From Celeribacter neptunius (GTDB lineage Bacteria > Pseudomonadota > Alphaproteobacteria > Rhodobacterales > Rhodobacteraceae), in assembly GCF_900113955.1 (NCBI RefSeq), contig NZ_FORH01000001.1, positions 364,395 through 428,394 on the forward strand: 64,000 nt of DNA, given 5' to 3'. The first letter of the stretch is position 1. Each line of letters opens with the position of its first letter. Shown here in pieces: positions 9,468-16,364 of this stretch. The translations under genes and the position numbers were made by a program. Below the pieces are notes generated by a model. That model saw nothing but the letters and a program-made list of their open reading frames with translations. It was not told where the DNA came from and made no database searches.

Positions 9468-9929
9468 TCAGTCCTTCATGATCGCGGCCAGGCGCTTTTC
9501 CTCATCCTCGGACAGCGCATCGAGTTCCGGCTCGCTCTGGCGCCGACGGATAAAGCTGATGCCGATGCCCAAGGCGAGGATCAGCATCACCGGCCCGGCG
9601 ATCCAGAGGATCTTGTTCGATCCGGTGAGCGTCGGTTTCAACAGCACGTATTCGCCGTAACGATCGACGATATAGGCCACGGTCTCGTTGTTGCTGTCGC
9701 CAGCCACGAGGCGTTCGCGCACCAGAAGCCGCAGGTCCTTGGCGAGTTTCGCATTGCTCTCGTCGATATTCTCGTTGCGACAGACGAGACAGCGCAGACC
9801 CTGCGAAATCTCCCGGGCGCGGGATTCCATCGCCGGATCGGGCAGGACCTCGTCGGGCTGCACGGCCACCGCGGGGACGGCAATGAGCAGTGCCAGGACC
9901 AGAAACAGGGGTTTCAGAAGCGCTTTCAT
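9468..9929 (-). CDS. ccmH: Cytochrome c maturation protein CcmH
   Basis: A 153-residue thiol oxidoreductase of System I. It has a signal peptide (residues 1-22), the redox motif Cys47-L-V-Cys50 in GLRCLVCRNENI, and a single C-terminal membrane segment (about 105-126) with a short cytoplasmic tail. It reduces apocytochrome CXXCH cysteines and works with CcmF. The start overlaps the ccmF stop by four bases (ATGA), a sign of coupled translation. Confidence 0.95.
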   Translation of the reverse strand: MKALLKPLFLVLALLIAVPAVAVQPDEVLPDPAMESRAREISQGLRCLVCRNENIDESNAKLAKDLRLLVRERLVAGDSNNETVAYIVDRYGEYVLLKPTLTGSNKILWIAGPVMLILALGIGISFIRRRQSEPELDALSEDEEKRLAAIMKD

Positions 9930-11908
9930 TCCGCCGGCACTCCCTTATGCGCCTCTTTCGGCGACACCTTGGCTTTGCGCGCGCCCGCAGCGACGCGGTA
10001 GCGACGGTCCGACAGCGACAGCAGCCCGCCAAAGGCCATGATGATCGTGCCACCCCAGATCCAGTTCGCCAGCGGCTTGATATAGGTGCGCACGGCCCAG
10101 CCCCCATTCGACTGGATATCGCCGATCACCAGATAGACGTCACGCAGGAAACCGTTGTCGATCCCGGCCTCGGTGGTCGGCATCTGCGCCACCGGGTAGG
10201 AGCGTTTCTCGGGGTGCAAGGTGCCGACCTTCTTGTCGCCGTCGAACACCGTCATGGTGGCCATGGTGGTGATATAGTTCGGCCCCTGCCCGCGCTCGAC
10301 ATTGTCGAGCGAGATCGTGTAGCCCGCGACATCGAACATCTCGCCAACCTGCACCACGCGGATATCCTCGACGGTCCAGGCGGTCAGCCCGGCAATGCCG
10401 GCGATGGTGACACCGAGGCCGCCATGGGCAAAGAGCCGGCCCCAATCGGCCCGCGGCAAGCGCGCAAGACGCGACAGGTCGCGTTTCTGACCAAGGCGCA
10501 AAAGGATGTCCTGTACCGCCCCGGCGATGAGCCAGGTGCCCAGAGCCAGTCCGATCGGACCGAGGAGCGTGCGCTCCGTCTGGATCGACCAGATCAGGCC
10601 CAGCACCGCCAGAGCGAGCAGCATCGACGGCACGAGCTTTTTCACCGCCACGCCCAGACGCGCGCGTTTCCACGGCAGGATCGCCCCCACCGGCAGGATC
10701 ACCGCCAGAGCGGTGAAGAACGGCGTGAAGGCGGCATTGAAGAACGGCGCCCCGACCGAGAGCTTGCGCGCCCAGAAGGCTTCGGCCACCAGCGGCCAGA
10801 TCGTACCGGTGAAGACGACGAGTGCGGCGACGGCCAGCAGGATATTGTTCATCACCAGCGCGCTTTCACGCGACACCATGGAGAAGACGCCCTTGGCGGT
10901 CATCACCGAAGCCCGCGCGGTAAAAAGCGTCAGCGCCCCGCCCATGAAGAAGGCGAGGATCAACAGGATGAACACACCACGTTCCGGGTCATTGGCAAAG
11001 GCATGCACCGAGGTGATCACGCCGGAACGCACCAGGAAAGTGCCAATCAGAGAGAAACCGAAAGCCATGATCGCCAGAAGGATGGTCCAGCTTTTCAGCG
11101 TCTCGCGTTTCTCGACCACGATGGCGGAATGCAGAAGGGCTGCGGCAAAGAGCCAGGGCATGAAAGACGCGTTCTCGACCGGGTCCCAGAACCAGAACCC
11201 GCCCCAGCCCAGCTCGTAATAGGCCCACCAGGAGCCAAGCCCGATGCCGATGGTCAGGAACAGCCAGGCGGCGAGCGTCCAGGGCCGCACCCAGCGCCCC
11301 CATGCGGCATCGACCCGGCCCTCGAGAAGCGCGGCCACGGCGAAGGAGAAGGTCATCGAGAGACCGACATAGCCGAGGTAGAGAAATGGCGGATGGAAGG
11401 CCAGCCCCGGGTCCTGCAACAGCGGGTTCAGGTCATCGCCATTCATCGGCGGCATCGCCAGACGGGCAAACGGGTTCGAGGTGAACAGGATGAAGGCCAG
11501 GAAGGCCACGCCGATCGAGCCCTGCACCCCGATCACCCGAGCGCGCAAGGTTTCCGGCAGGTTGGAACCGAACAGCGCGGCAGCCGCCCCAAAGAGCGCC
11601 AGAATCAGCACCCAGAGGAGCATCGAGCCCTCATGGTTGCCCCAGACGCCCGAGACCTTGTAGAGCATCGGCTTGAGGGTGTGAGAGTTCTCCACCACCA
11701 CTTTCAGCGAGAAATCCGAGGTAACGAACGCATAGGTCAGCGCGCCGAAGGAAAAGGCGATCAACACCAGCTGCACCATTGCCGCCGGGTCGCCCACCGC
11801 CATCAGGCTGCGATTGCGGGTCTGCGCCCCCCAAAGCGGCAAGATCGTCTGCGCGATGGCGACAAAAAACGCCATCACGAGGGCAAAATGTCCAAGTTCT
11901 ACGAGCAT
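9926..11908 (-). CDS. ccmF: Heme lyase subunit CcmF
   Basis: A 660-residue multi-spanning membrane protein that, with CcmH, attaches heme to apocytochrome c. The tryptophan-rich WWD domain is at about residues 225-246 (GSWWAYYELGWGGFWFW). Periplasmic histidines expected for heme ligation are present, for example in VWGNHEGS and AFHPPFLYLGY. I start at MLVELGHF because GGGAGG lies six bases upstream. It is the first ccm gene of the leftward group. The 144-residue membrane gene lies 183 bases upstream. Confidence 0.96.
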   Translation of the reverse strand: MLVELGHFALVMAFFVAIAQTILPLWGAQTRNRSLMAVGDPAAMVQLVLIAFSFGALTYAFVTSDFSLKVVVENSHTLKPMLYKVSGVWGNHEGSMLLWVLILALFGAAAALFGSNLPETLRARVIGVQGSIGVAFLAFILFTSNPFARLAMPPMNGDDLNPLLQDPGLAFHPPFLYLGYVGLSMTFSFAVAALLEGRVDAAWGRWVRPWTLAAWLFLTIGIGLGSWWAYYELGWGGFWFWDPVENASFMPWLFAAALLHSAIVVEKRETLKSWTILLAIMAFGFSLIGTFLVRSGVITSVHAFANDPERGVFILLILAFFMGGALTLFTARASVMTAKGVFSMVSRESALVMNNILLAVAALVVFTGTIWPLVAEAFWARKLSVGAPFFNAAFTPFFTALAVILPVGAILPWKRARLGVAVKKLVPSMLLALAVLGLIWSIQTERTLLGPIGLALGTWLIAGAVQDILLRLGQKRDLSRLARLPRADWGRLFAHGGLGVTIAGIAGLTAWTVEDIRVVQVGEMFDVAGYTISLDNVERGQGPNYITTMATMTVFDGDKKVGTLHPEKRSYPVAQMPTTEAGIDNGFLRDVYLVIGDIQSNGGWAVRTYIKPLANWIWGGTIIMAFGGLLSLSDRRYRVAAGARKAKVSPKEAHKGVPAE

Positions 11909-12091: not shown

Positions 12092-12526
12092 TCACAGCAG
12101 GAAAACCGCCGCGAAAGACAGGAAAAACGCCCCCATGACCGGCCAGAGAAAGCTCAGCCCCGTGAGGCCGAATGTGCCCTGAATCACCGAAAAGTGAAGC
12201 ACGGCTCCGGCGATCAACAGCGCGAGCGCGAGCAAAAGCAGGATGGTTTCACCGCCGGAGGCGTTGGAAATCCGCGCCACGCGGGCCCAGCACCCGCTCG
12301 CCCAGAATGCCATGGTGAGCCCCGATCCGGCCCAGGACAGCGCCATGCCCAGCGCCAGCGGTGTCGCGCGCTGCGACCAGAGCCACAGGAAGGTGGCGGA
12401 GATCATCAGGGCCATCAGGGCGATGGCGCCATAGCTCAACGCAAGCACCTGATGCGGCCCGAGGAGCAGGAGCATGAGACAGAGTGCGCCCGCCACGAGG
12501 GCATAAAGACCGAAGACCTGTTTCAT
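12092..12526 (-). CDS. Multi-spanning membrane protein at the end of the lysis cassette
   Basis: A 144-residue, strongly hydrophobic protein with about four membrane segments (MKQVFGLYALVAGALCL, then SYGAIALMALMISATFLWLW, then two more). The start overlaps the stop of the 49-codon gene by four bases (ATGA), so it is translationally coupled to the endolysin-holin group. I do not recognise the family. Its place suggests an accessory part of the lysis machinery, or a protein that merely travels with it. Alternative: an unrelated inner-membrane protein upstream of ccmF. Confidence 0.75.
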   Translation of the reverse strand: MKQVFGLYALVAGALCLMLLLLGPHQVLALSYGAIALMALMISATFLWLWSQRATPLALGMALSWAGSGLTMAFWASGCWARVARISNASGGETILLLLALALLIAGAVLHFSVIQGTFGLTGLSFLWPVMGAFFLSFAAVFLL

Positions 12527-12672
12527 GGTTTCAACATCTCCTTGACCGCCGCGTCGAGCGCATCGGCCGCCGCCTGATGGCGTTTGAGCGCGACCGTGAG
12601 ATCCCGACTCATCCGTAGCCCGCGCAACTTTGCCCAAATCCAACCTGCGCGTTTCCCCGAGATCTTGCCCAT
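12523..12672 (-). CDS. Small basic protein, 49 residues, in the lysis cassette
   Basis: A short frame from MGKISGKRAG to the tail AVKEMLKP, basic at the start (K, R) and helical with an alanine-rich middle (KRHQAAADALDAA). It has a ribosome site (GAGGGGG) just upstream, starts five bases after the previous gene ends, and its stop overlaps the next start as ATGA. This tight packing is the main evidence that it is real. No domain is recognised, and there is no clear membrane span. Confidence 0.55.
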   Translation of the reverse strand: MGKISGKRAGWIWAKLRGLRMSRDLTVALKRHQAAADALDAAVKEMLKP

Positions 12673-12677
12673 CCCCC

Positions 12678-12854
12678 TCACCCGTGCGGCAGGCGTTCGC
12701 GGATCATCGTGGTCAGTTCCACGAGGATCTGGGTGTTCTTGTCGAGCACCGCGCGCGTCGCCTGATCCTTTTGCAGATCGCGATACAGCAGGTAGAACAC
12801 CATGAGCACCCAGGGCCCGTGTTCCGCCAGAGCGGCAATCAACGTCTCACTCAT
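12678..12854 (-). CDS. Small single-span membrane protein, 58 residues, in the lysis cassette
   Basis: The frame starts MSETLIAALAEHGPW, has one hydrophobic stretch (about residues 13-24, PWVLMVFYLLYR) and a charged helical tail (RDLQKDQATRAVLDKN). Its ATG overlaps the holin stop by eight bases, so translation is coupled. The shape, one short span plus a charged tail, fits a holin accessory or antiholin-like protein, but that is inferred from position and form only. Confidence 0.65.
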   Translation of the reverse strand: MSETLIAALAEHGPWVLMVFYLLYRDLQKDQATRAVLDKNTQILVELTTMIRERLPHG

Positions 12855-13434
12855 CGCGCCCTCCCGCCCCGCTGGCCCGCCACTCCGCCAGAGCCGGGTT
12901 TAGCGCATCGCTCCCCGGCACGGAGGCCGGGGGGGCGGGCAGATCCGGCCCCTCTGCCGTCGCGCCGGCGCGCAAGGCCTCAAGCGCCCGGATATTCGTC
13001 GTCACGGTCGAGGCCCGGGCCATGGTGGAGGCGACAGAGCGCTGAAACTCCTGCGATTTCACCTGATAGCGGGCACCGAAATAGAACGAGACGATGGTGC
13101 CCAACAGCCACCAGAGCGGTTCCGGGATCAGAGCGACCCCCTGCATCCGCGCGGCAAACCAGACCGGATCGACCATGGCCGCGACACAAAGCCCGATGGT
13201 GCCAAAGGCCATCAGCGGCCGCGGCACCCGGTTGAGCGCATCCATGAACCGATCAAAATCCCCCTGACGCGGGGCGGCGAATTCGGTGGCGAATTGCTGC
13301 ATCGCCGCTGCCCGCATCGCCGCCTCACGCGCGCCGGCGTTTTCCGAGTTTTCGAAAAAGACCTCCGCCGTGTCTTTGATCACATTTTGGCCGGAGCCAA
13401 ACAGCAGCGCGAAAACCCGTTCGATCACCCCCAT
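12847..13434 (-). CDS. GTA-type holin (three membrane spans)
   Basis: A 195-residue protein starting MGVIERVFALLFG. It matches my memory of the holin family that serves gene transfer agent release in Rhodobacter capsulatus (rcc00556-like). An N-terminal amphipathic helix is followed by a helix-rich segment (NAGAREAAMRAAAMQQFA), then hydrophobic spans around residues 71-90 (LMAFGTIGLCVAAMVDPVWF) and 100-120 (PEPLWWLLGTIVSFYFGARY), then a proline/alanine-rich tail. Its start overlaps the endolysin stop by ten bases. It would form inner-membrane lesions that let the endolysin reach the cell wall. Confidence 0.85.
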   Translation of the reverse strand: MGVIERVFALLFGSGQNVIKDTAEVFFENSENAGAREAAMRAAAMQQFATEFAAPRQGDFDRFMDALNRVPRPLMAFGTIGLCVAAMVDPVWFAARMQGVALIPEPLWWLLGTIVSFYFGARYQVKSQEFQRSVASTMARASTVTTNIRALEALRAGATAEGPDLPAPPASVPGSDALNPALAEWRASGAGGRDE

Positions 13435-14036
13435 GTCGCCACCCGGGCGGCATGCTCGGCCTCCGTCAGGTGATAGCGCAGCGAGATGAACTCTTCGGCA
13501 CGGGTGATCCAACCGCCCTTGCCGCCATCGCGACGGCGGGCGTATTTGCGGGCACTCGGACGACGATCCGCCAAAGCGTAATAGTAATTGCGCCGGGCAA
13601 TGCCATAAGCATCGGCGAGATAGGCCGGCGCCAGAGATTGCGCGATGAATGCCGCCTCGATGGTCTGCGGCCCGATGGCGCCGTCGATCGCGATCCTTTG
13701 TCCCATGTCAGTCAAGAGACGTTGCAAGATCCGCACCGCATTGGCGCCGGCATTGACATACATGTCAAAGACCGACGGCTGAAGCACCGGCGGCAATTCA
13801 TCGATCCGGGGCCGGTGGAAATACTGTTCGACATAGAGGTCGCACACCTGTTTGCGGCTGAGCCTCCGGATATCGCGGTTCTCGATCCGGCCATTGCCGT
13901 CGAGATCGAGGCCGAGGCGTTTCAGCGTCGCAAGGCTCAGCCCGTATTTCGTCGCGCCGCCCGGATCGTCCGGATCGTTCACGTAACCGCCCTCGCGGGT
14001 GATGATCTCCATGGCGAGTTGCTGAACTGATTTCAT
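13425..14036 (-). CDS. GTA-type endolysin (glycoside hydrolase 108 family)
   Basis: A 203-residue peptidoglycan hydrolase. The N-terminal GH108 motif TREGGYVNDPDDPGGATKYG carries the catalytic Glu15. A C-terminal peptidoglycan-binding-like part (QRIAIDGAIGPQTIEAA) follows. There is no signal peptide, so it needs the downstream holin. It resembles rcc00555, the endolysin for RcGTA release, which is encoded away from the GTA head-tail cluster. I choose the ATG at 14036 because GGGAG lies eight bases upstream; an in-frame GTG three codons earlier is the alternative. First gene of a five-gene coupled set. Confidence 0.88.
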   Translation of the reverse strand: MKSVQQLAMEIITREGGYVNDPDDPGGATKYGLSLATLKRLGLDLDGNGRIENRDIRRLSRKQVCDLYVEQYFHRPRIDELPPVLQPSVFDMYVNAGANAVRILQRLLTDMGQRIAIDGAIGPQTIEAAFIAQSLAPAYLADAYGIARRNYYYALADRRPSARKYARRRDGGKGGWITRAEEFISLRYHLTEAEHAARVATWG

Positions 14037-14140
14037 AGGCCCCACTCCCGAAAGGTGACGGGAGAGAGGGTCCTAGAAAGAGGTTAAGCCTGCCCGATCA
14101 GAGCGTGCGATGGGGAGAGGTGGAAGACGGAGGGGGACAT

Positions 14141-14423: not shown

Positions 14424-14876
14424 TCAGCTCTCGGAGAGGTTGTCGATGGCCCGGGTGATCAGGGACATCAGTGTGGCGCGCTCAGCTGCGCTCATGCCAC
14501 GTGTTGCCGCGATATTGACCTCCTGGGCGGCCTGAATGGCCGGGGCCTGCAACTGCCGGGCCTGTTCTGTGAGCCAGACGGTCTGCACCCGGGCGTCCCG
14601 GTCATGGGCGCGGCGGGTGATCAGCCCGTCACGTTCCATCCGTGCCAATGTATTGGCCATGGTCGCCTGTTCGACGCCAAGCTCGGCCACCAGTTCGCGC
14701 TGCGTACGCCCCTCCTTTTCCCACAGGGCCAGCATCACCGGAAATGTGCCGGTGGAGAGGCCCAGCGGTTTGATCCCGTCCTGAATGGCGCGGGCGAAGA
14801 GCCGGGCCATGTGGTTGACCAGATAGCCTTCGGAGCGGCTGCGATGAAATTGCGGGTCTGTGTCTGTCGGCGTCAT
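14424..14876 (-). CDS. MarR-family transcriptional regulator
   Basis: A 150-residue winged-helix regulator. The order is a dimerisation helix (YLVNHMARLFARAIQDG), the recognition helix region (RTQRELVAELGVEQATMANTLARME), and the wing (DRDARVQTVWLTEQ), all typical of MarR. It is divergent from the membrane protein at 14949, and the 72-base gap holds two palindromic boxes, so self-repression and control of the neighbour are likely. The ligand is unknown. Confidence 0.93.
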   Translation of the reverse strand: MTPTDTDPQFHRSRSEGYLVNHMARLFARAIQDGIKPLGLSTGTFPVMLALWEKEGRTQRELVAELGVEQATMANTLARMERDGLITRRAHDRDARVQTVWLTEQARQLQAPAIQAAQEVNIAATRGMSAAERATLMSLITRAIDNLSES

Positions 14877-15485: not shown

Positions 15486-16364
15486 TCAGCCGATGCCGAT
15501 GCCGCCACCGCCGATGTCGCCCGGATCGGCCAGCCCGATCACGGTGACGTCGACCGTGCCGGTGACGCCATTCTCGATCTCGTAGGTGAAGCTGGTGATG
15601 GTTTCCTCAAAGGCGCCCAGCGTGTCGAAATCGCCTCCGGCGTTGAAATCCACGGTGCCATCCGGGTAGATCGTCAGCGTGCCGCCATTGCTGCCGGCGA
15701 CGGTGATCGCCTCGGTGATCTCCACCCCGTCCTGATAGATGCCCCCGTCATAGGCCGTGCCATCGGTGGTGTCATTGGCCAGAACAGACTCGGCGCCGCC
15801 GTCGATAAACTCGAAGCCGTCGGCATTGTCGGAGAACACCAGGATGCTGTCATCGACGGCTTCGATGACGGCGCTTGCGGGTGCTTCCGGCGCGGTGGCG
15901 CCGAGTTTGAGCGAGTCGTCGCGGGTCCCGTCTTCGGTGCCGACCGAGGTCAGGCGCACGCCGAAATCCTGCAGCGCAATGGTCTCGAGGCTGAGATCGA
16001 GACTGTCATGGCTCAGGGTGAAGGAGGTCTGGCGAATATCATCCTCGCCGATGCCCTGGGTGCCGAATTGCACGCCGCCGTCGAATTTGCCGTATTCCTG
16101 GACCACCTCACCGTTCATATTGGTGTAGCTGTCCACCTTGGTCACCGAATTGGCGTCGAAATTGTCATCGGTGATCATGTCGCCGGTGACCGAGAGGCCG
16201 CTGACCAGGCTGTCATCGAGCACGTCGAAGAACAGTGCATTCAGATCGCCGATCGATCCGGTGTCGTCGAGCACCAGAAGGTCAAAGACCAGATCTCCGT
16301 TCACCTCGGTGACCGTGACCTGCACATTCACCTCGCCCTCAATCACAAAGCTCATCGTCGCCAT
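15486..16364 (-). CDS. Acidic Ig-like/VCBS-type protein, probable secreted product
   Basis: A 292-residue, very acidic protein (many D and E, few K and R) with beta-strand-rich repeats. Residues 1-150 form one unit (MSFVIEGEVNVQVTVTEV). Residues about 185-280 form a VCBS/cadherin-like unit (SVLANDTTDG ... GGTLTIYPDGTVDFNAGGDF ... SFTYEIENGVTGTVDVTV). The C-terminus is glycine-rich (GDIGGGGIGIG). There is no N-terminal signal peptide, which together with the acidity suggests type I (ABC) secretion; this is inference. No exporter genes are adjacent. A terminator follows. Confidence 0.78.
   Translation of the reverse strand: MATMSFVIEGEVNVQVTVTEVNGDLVFDLLVLDDTGSIGDLNALFFDVLDDSLVSGLSVTGDMITDDNFDANSVTKVDSYTNMNGEVVQEYGKFDGGVQFGTQGIGEDDIRQTSFTLSHDSLDLSLETIALQDFGVRLTSVGTEDGTRDDSLKLGATAPEAPASAVIEAVDDSILVFSDNADGFEFIDGGAESVLANDTTDGTAYDGGIYQDGVEITEAITVAGSNGGTLTIYPDGTVDFNAGGDFDTLGAFEETITSFTYEIENGVTGTVDVTVIGLADPGDIGGGGIGIG

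Follow-up and report, generated by a model that had tools for sequence, protein, structure and literature searches.

The cassette described here is located on the minus strand at positions 12092–14036 of the window, i.e. the whole stretch of DNA analysed, 64 kb from Celeribacter neptunius (C5:364395-428394). Read from 14036 towards 12092 it consists of a gene for an endolysin, a gene for a holin and three further genes, here called p3, p4 and p5. The endolysin (13425–14036, minus strand) is a protein of 203 aa with a GH108 muramidase domain followed by a PG_binding_3 domain, and the holin (12847–13434, minus strand) is a protein of 195 aa belonging to PF11351, GTA_holin_3TM. The genes p3 (12678–12854), p4 (12523–12672) and p5 (12092–12526), all on the minus strand, encode 58, 49 and 144 aa respectively; p3 is made up of a short helix, a GPW turn and a long helix and is weakly BhlA-like, p4 is basic with a net charge of +7 and belongs to no known family, and p5 contains five predicted membrane helices and shows no known family or fold. 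All five frames are open in this genome. The close coupling described in the original prediction was confirmed, with overlaps of 10 bases between endolysin and holin, 8 bases between holin and p3 and 4 bases between p4 and p5, and a single gap of 5 bases between p3 and p4. An alternative in-frame GTG start of p4 at 12681 would replace this gap by a 4-base overlap with p3.

Directly downstream of the cassette and on the same strand, also as predicted, lies ccmF (9926–11908, minus strand; PF16327 and PF01578), whose start at 11908 is 183 bases beyond p5 and which is followed by ccmH. The upstream neighbour is a gene for a MarR-family regulator (14424–14876, minus strand), standing at the place usually held by ccmE; the latter is not upstream of the cassette here and gave no match in the 64-kb window at E 1e-4. 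At 15486–16364 on the minus strand an acidic protein of 292 aa with a repeated sequence of the type 'AVDDSILVFSDNADGFEF' is encoded, which by eye is perhaps surface- or adhesin-like.

Comparison with family models showed that the endolysin matches PF05838 (86.5 bits) and PF09374 (78.4 bits) and reaches 343.4 bits against the curated model NF040573, 'holin-associated N-acetylmuramidase' (cut-off 240), and that the holin reaches 95.7 bits against PF11351 (cut-off 24.8). Judged from these models the two genes are a lysis pair of the gene transfer agent (GTA) type, in agreement with the original prediction, and the cassette is an enlarged lysis module of the RcGTA type. GH108 endolysins occur in phages as well, and 533 of 50,697 phage records matched the endolysin, but the identity was only 28–35% in the 20 best-ranked of these 533, the holin (at E 0.01), p3 and p5 matched none of the records, an alignment of p3 gave no match in IMG/VR, the endolysin and holin fit curated GTA-type models and the cassette keeps to one ccmE/ccmF site throughout the family, so that an origin as part of an ordinary prophage is extremely improbable and was rejected.

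In family-model scans none of p3, p4 and p5 reached a curated cut-off. The p3 protein of the window scores 14.8 bits against PF10960, Holin_BhlA, and was rejected as a full member of that family since the curated cut-off is 22.6. Among its relatives, 11 of 12 at the genus level match PF10960 with E values not above 1, the best being 0.0005, as do 18 of 30 wider relatives (best E 0.001), and the GPW turn between the short helix and the one long helix is invariant. The likeness to BhlA lies in the small size, the membrane-like helix after the GPW turn and the charged helix, whereas p3 differs in scoring below the cut-off and in being encoded beside another holin. For p5, a confident structure model (mean pLDDT 92.8) consists of five helices, and at E 0.001 neither PDB nor BFVD yielded a structure resembling it. 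A weak match of p5 to a herpesvirus family (E 0.011, below the cut-off) and two-member matches elsewhere were taken as chance.

The three genes following the holin had been suggested to be parts of the cassette, and their distribution bears this out. Of the 20 genomes of the genus, 19 share all five genes in identical order and all 20 have the holin; in the exception, G004, endolysin and holin are followed by ccmF without p3–p5. A search for named relatives of p3 revealed 82, from which 80 loci were kept, the closest being from Celeribacter and the next from Pacificibacter. The order endolysin–holin–p3 is seen in 76 of the 80, and 69 harbour both p4 and p5 (8 of the 69 in the order p5–p4), 2 harbour p4 alone, and both are missing from 9, of which 2 end at a contig edge. 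In 74 of the 80 loci ccmE is located upstream. Two loci have a different composition: in one (L132:3992-4715) p3, p4 and p5 are present and endolysin and holin are absent, and in the other (L133:3565-4162) p3 stands beside a partial endolysin only, no holin being found there. In view of these two loci p3–p5 may have another role.

In a survey of the family, with one sampled genome from each of 149 genera, p3 was detected in 14 genera and gave no match in the remaining 135. In 12 of these genera it is next to the holin, and the other two showed no match to PF11351. As most genera lack p3, it is no general requirement for GTA lysis. The original prediction had suggested that lysis may need more than two proteins; since endolysin and holin alone precede ccmF in many genera, p3–p5 are not needed everywhere.

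The ratio dN/dS was calculated for endolysin, holin, p3 and p5 in nine close genome pairs, using only the first 117 codons of the holin of G019, and was 0.02–0.14 for the endolysin, 0.03–0.09 for the holin, 0–0.07 for p3 and 0.04–0.15 for p5. These four genes are under purifying selection and are real, constrained genes. In this genome dN of p5 is 0.34 compared to 0.17–0.27 in the nine congeners compared, and the values for endolysin, holin and p3 are near those of the congeners. One could regard p3–p5 as cargo unrelated to lysis which has been caught between the holin and ccmF, as p5 is the least conserved of the genes and without known relatives, and as L132 carries p3–p4–p5 without endolysin or holin and in L133, where no holin was found, p3 is accompanied by a partial endolysin. 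However, the gene immediately after the holin is p3 in 76 of the 80 named loci and in 12 of the 14 genomes of the survey that carry it, and the frames mostly overlap or nearly touch; the cargo explanation is distinctly unlikely. Most likely p3–p5 would instead modulate the opening of the membrane by the holin.

When analysing the region upstream of the endolysin gene, a TTAA was found 49–54 bases before the start codon in 20 out of 20 genomes of the genus. It is situated inside a conserved block with the genus-wide form GTTAACCTTTTT, which in this genome reads CTTAACCTCTTT (14077–14088, minus strand) with the TTAA 51 bases upstream of the endolysin start. Allowing at most 2 mismatches, this promoter element has 2 matches in the window compared to 0.51 expected by chance. 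The conserved TTAA resembles a CtrA half-site and is a candidate for one. Putative CtrA half-sites are described at the lysis promoter of R. capsulatus in PMC9638019, and the expression of the endolysin is CtrA-dependent according to PMC6363796. Comparing the promoter of g1 with the lysis promoter by eye revealed no obvious common motif.

The absence of GTA structural genes near the cassette, proposed earlier, was supported by four marker queries (TIGR02218, TIGR02126 and one query each for capsid/g11 and g2/g12/g13), none of which had a match inside the window. The cassette does stand apart from the head-tail cluster, as had been supposed by analogy with R. capsulatus: g1–g15, DUF2793 (g16) and cysE are located at C5:518423-531502, on the same contig and 140 kb away, the structural cluster itself covering C5:518423-530716. 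The expected cluster thus exists in the genome but it is not complete. The capsid gene, up to approximately residue 215, is fused in frame to g11 (G000:C5:522767-523999, equal to L004:2768-4000), and compared to the congener G006 the cluster is shorter by 3,134 bases, the second half of the capsid, g6–g10 and the start of g11 being missing. Furthermore, the major tail family TIGR02126 has no match anywhere in this genome. Because of the capsid::g11 deletion and since no major tail gene was detected, production of GTA particles by this strain appears unlikely, and the statement in the original prediction that the cell can release such particles was not supported in view of the approximately 3.1 kb lost.

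Within the genus TIGR02126 is present in 16 of the 20 genomes and absent from G000 (this genome), G015, G016 and G019. In three of these four the cassette is open; the holin of G019 (L020:1456-2052) has a premature stop after 117 codons of a protein of approximately 198 aa, and among the structural genes tried in G019 only a stretch of g2 is left. In G015 (L175:2245-4548) the portal gene g3 (around residue 145) is fused to g15 (around residue 597), and the reading frame is broken farther along.

Across the 149 genera, holin and major tail gene are both present in 101, the holin only in 26, the tail gene only in 10 and neither in 12, a significant co-occurrence (Fisher p = 0.0024). Besides this genome there are 25 genera with the holin only, at least one and perhaps four of which are false absences due to draft fragmentation: the cluster of G104 is divided between two contigs, and an almost full-length g2 is present in the draft assemblies of G064, G071 and G158. 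A full-length endolysin of 203 aa stands next to the holin in 23 of the 25, and of the other two one ends at a contig edge and G147 has no endolysin there. GTA-like matches, some from other prophages, are still found in 22 of the 25, and for G075, G138 and G184 the query used revealed no remains of a GTA. The lysis genes persist longer than the particle genes. When terminal branches were compared relative to ccmF between 17 genera without and 36 with a tail gene, they were not longer in the former for either the endolysin (p = 0.56) or the holin (p = 0.96). This comparison used 53 of the 73 tabulated loci; 20 loci, this genome included, were dropped as ccmF or the endolysin was missing or short. 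Relaxed selection on the lysis genes in genera without a major tail gene was thus not seen, and as endolysin and holin evolve no faster there, a role bound to GTA alone is not favoured. Their survival may be explained by recent losses of the particle genes, by shelter in the ccm locus or by a separate function of lysis.

The last of these would mean that the lysis genes serve a purpose of their own in addition to GTA release, e.g. programmed lysis, vesicle release or turnover of the wall, and that this is why they are intact where the particle genes are lost. The full-length endolysin beside the holin in 23 of 25 other genera without a detected tail gene and the lack of faster evolution in the branch comparison above are consistent with such a function, but the losses may be recent, given the GTA-like matches in 22 of the 25 (some from other prophages), and the clusters of G064, G071 and G158 may be intact, that of G104 being split on two contigs. 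In addition the holin is interrupted at codon 117 of approximately 198 in G019, where nearly all structural genes tested are lost. A separate purpose is rather unlikely.

Survival of the lysis genes is perhaps linked to their position between ccmE and ccmF. If the cassette were retained by its site inside the cytochrome c maturation locus, deleting it would risk the expression of ccmF and no separate function would be needed. In favour of this, ccmE is located upstream in 74 of the 80 named loci with p3. The same is true of 20 of the 23 genera that lack the major tail gene and of 33 of the 40 that have it, and in most of these loci ccmF follows on the same strand. Such a site would guard against deletion but not against stop codons and frameshifts, and most lysis frames are open; moreover, in the genome studied here ccmE is not upstream and has no match in the window at E 1e-4. 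Retention by position alone is a possible but somewhat unlikely explanation.

To describe the loss of particle genes, 21 broken clusters were examined, 17 from the 25 holin-only genera and four from the genus. In 11 of the 21 an identical, codon-exact fusion of g2 to g15 was found (L176:3662-6178, L217, L218, L219, L220 and L222–L227). At the junction g2 runs to the glutamate of ...AAWVDE and continues as g15 from residue 654 (...GCAAIDKGTN), so that the first half of the terminase ATPase g2 is joined in frame to the second half of the tail protein g15; this glutamate of ...AAWVDE is presumably the Walker B glutamate of the ATPase. Nine of the fusion frames are open over 826–839 aa, that of G098 is interrupted later and that of G182 ends at a contig edge. 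G073 has the left breakpoint in common only, and the remaining broken clusters differ. Descent from one fusion is not favoured by the trees of g2 and g15, drawn without support values, in both of which G016 is placed with G000, G113 with G095/G028 and G086 with relatives whose cluster is intact; in at least four cases a fusion stands among intact relatives of its own lineage. Some fusions do pair together in one tree, G122/G183 for g2 and G135/G180, G147/G187 and G098/G182 for g15, and these pairings count against full independence. From these trees we take the fusion to have at least four origins. None of the eight fusions tested showed a stretch of foreign sequence flanking the junction.

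The sequences meeting at the junction have 0–8 identical bases in 21 genomes, and DNA homology was rejected as the driver, a better match being given by 1,323 to 100,200 of the 480,000 in-phase codon pairs. Six triads showed no relaxed selection in the fusions: nonsynonymous/synonymous changes were 34/112 in fusions compared to 31/95 in sisters for the g2 part, and 147/307 compared to 169/330 for the g15 part. The junction pattern had no match in IMG/VR, which is weak evidence since collapsed clusters are hardly called viral. The fusion may be an artefact of curation or assembly of the genomes. It is conceivable, though unlikely, that selection for a fused g2::g15 protein or a site-specific process drives a recurrent, codon-exact loss of GTA particles in Rhodobacteraceae, and if this is true the in-frame g2::g15 deletion would be a standing route by which lineages stop lysing while retaining the lysis cassette. 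No mention of the fusion or of p3–p5 was found in the portions of the GTA literature searched, which does not imply their absence from print.

Release of the GTA of R. capsulatus needs both an endolysin and a holin. By family models and description the first two genes of the cassette can be likened to rcc00555 (lysozyme/endolysin) and rcc00556 (holin) of RcGTA in Rhodobacter capsulatus, with which they share a GH108-type endolysin followed by a PF11351 holin, a location apart from the head-tail cluster and a TTAA in the promoter. Unlike RcGTA, the module continues after the holin with three more coupled genes, and in this genome the head-tail cluster is broken. For Caulobacter crescentus, too, GTA lysis is described as involving more than two proteins (LypABC), and according to the same source (PMC13236601) this organism has no holin or endolysin homologue; family scans of the present cassette revealed no domain of the kind described there. 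What is new in the present locus are three conserved accessory genes in an RcGTA-type module that is intact in a genome with a broken particle cluster.

Taken as a whole, we consider it probable that the cassette is an RcGTA-type lysis module which has been enlarged in part of the Rhodobacteraceae, with p3–p5 as accessory genes, and which stands in a genome where the particle cluster is broken. According to this explanation the holin would open the inner membrane and the GH108 muramidase would then reach the wall, and p3 as a small BhlA-like membrane protein, p5 as a five-helix membrane protein and p4 as a small basic partner would set the timing or completeness of the membrane opening. Transcription would probably be timed by CtrA, together with GafA, via the conserved TTAA-bearing promoter. 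The intact module probably has no particles to release in this genome, because the head-tail cluster lacks half of the capsid, g6–g10 and the start of g11.

If p3–p5 take part as proposed, GTA lysis in part of the family would be a controlled multi-protein process with new players that can be tested. In a model described in PMC6209664, a population of GTA producers can be invaded by GTA-minus cells which take up DNA, and the survival of lysis genes after the loss of particle genes bears on the question of why the costly production of GTA is kept.
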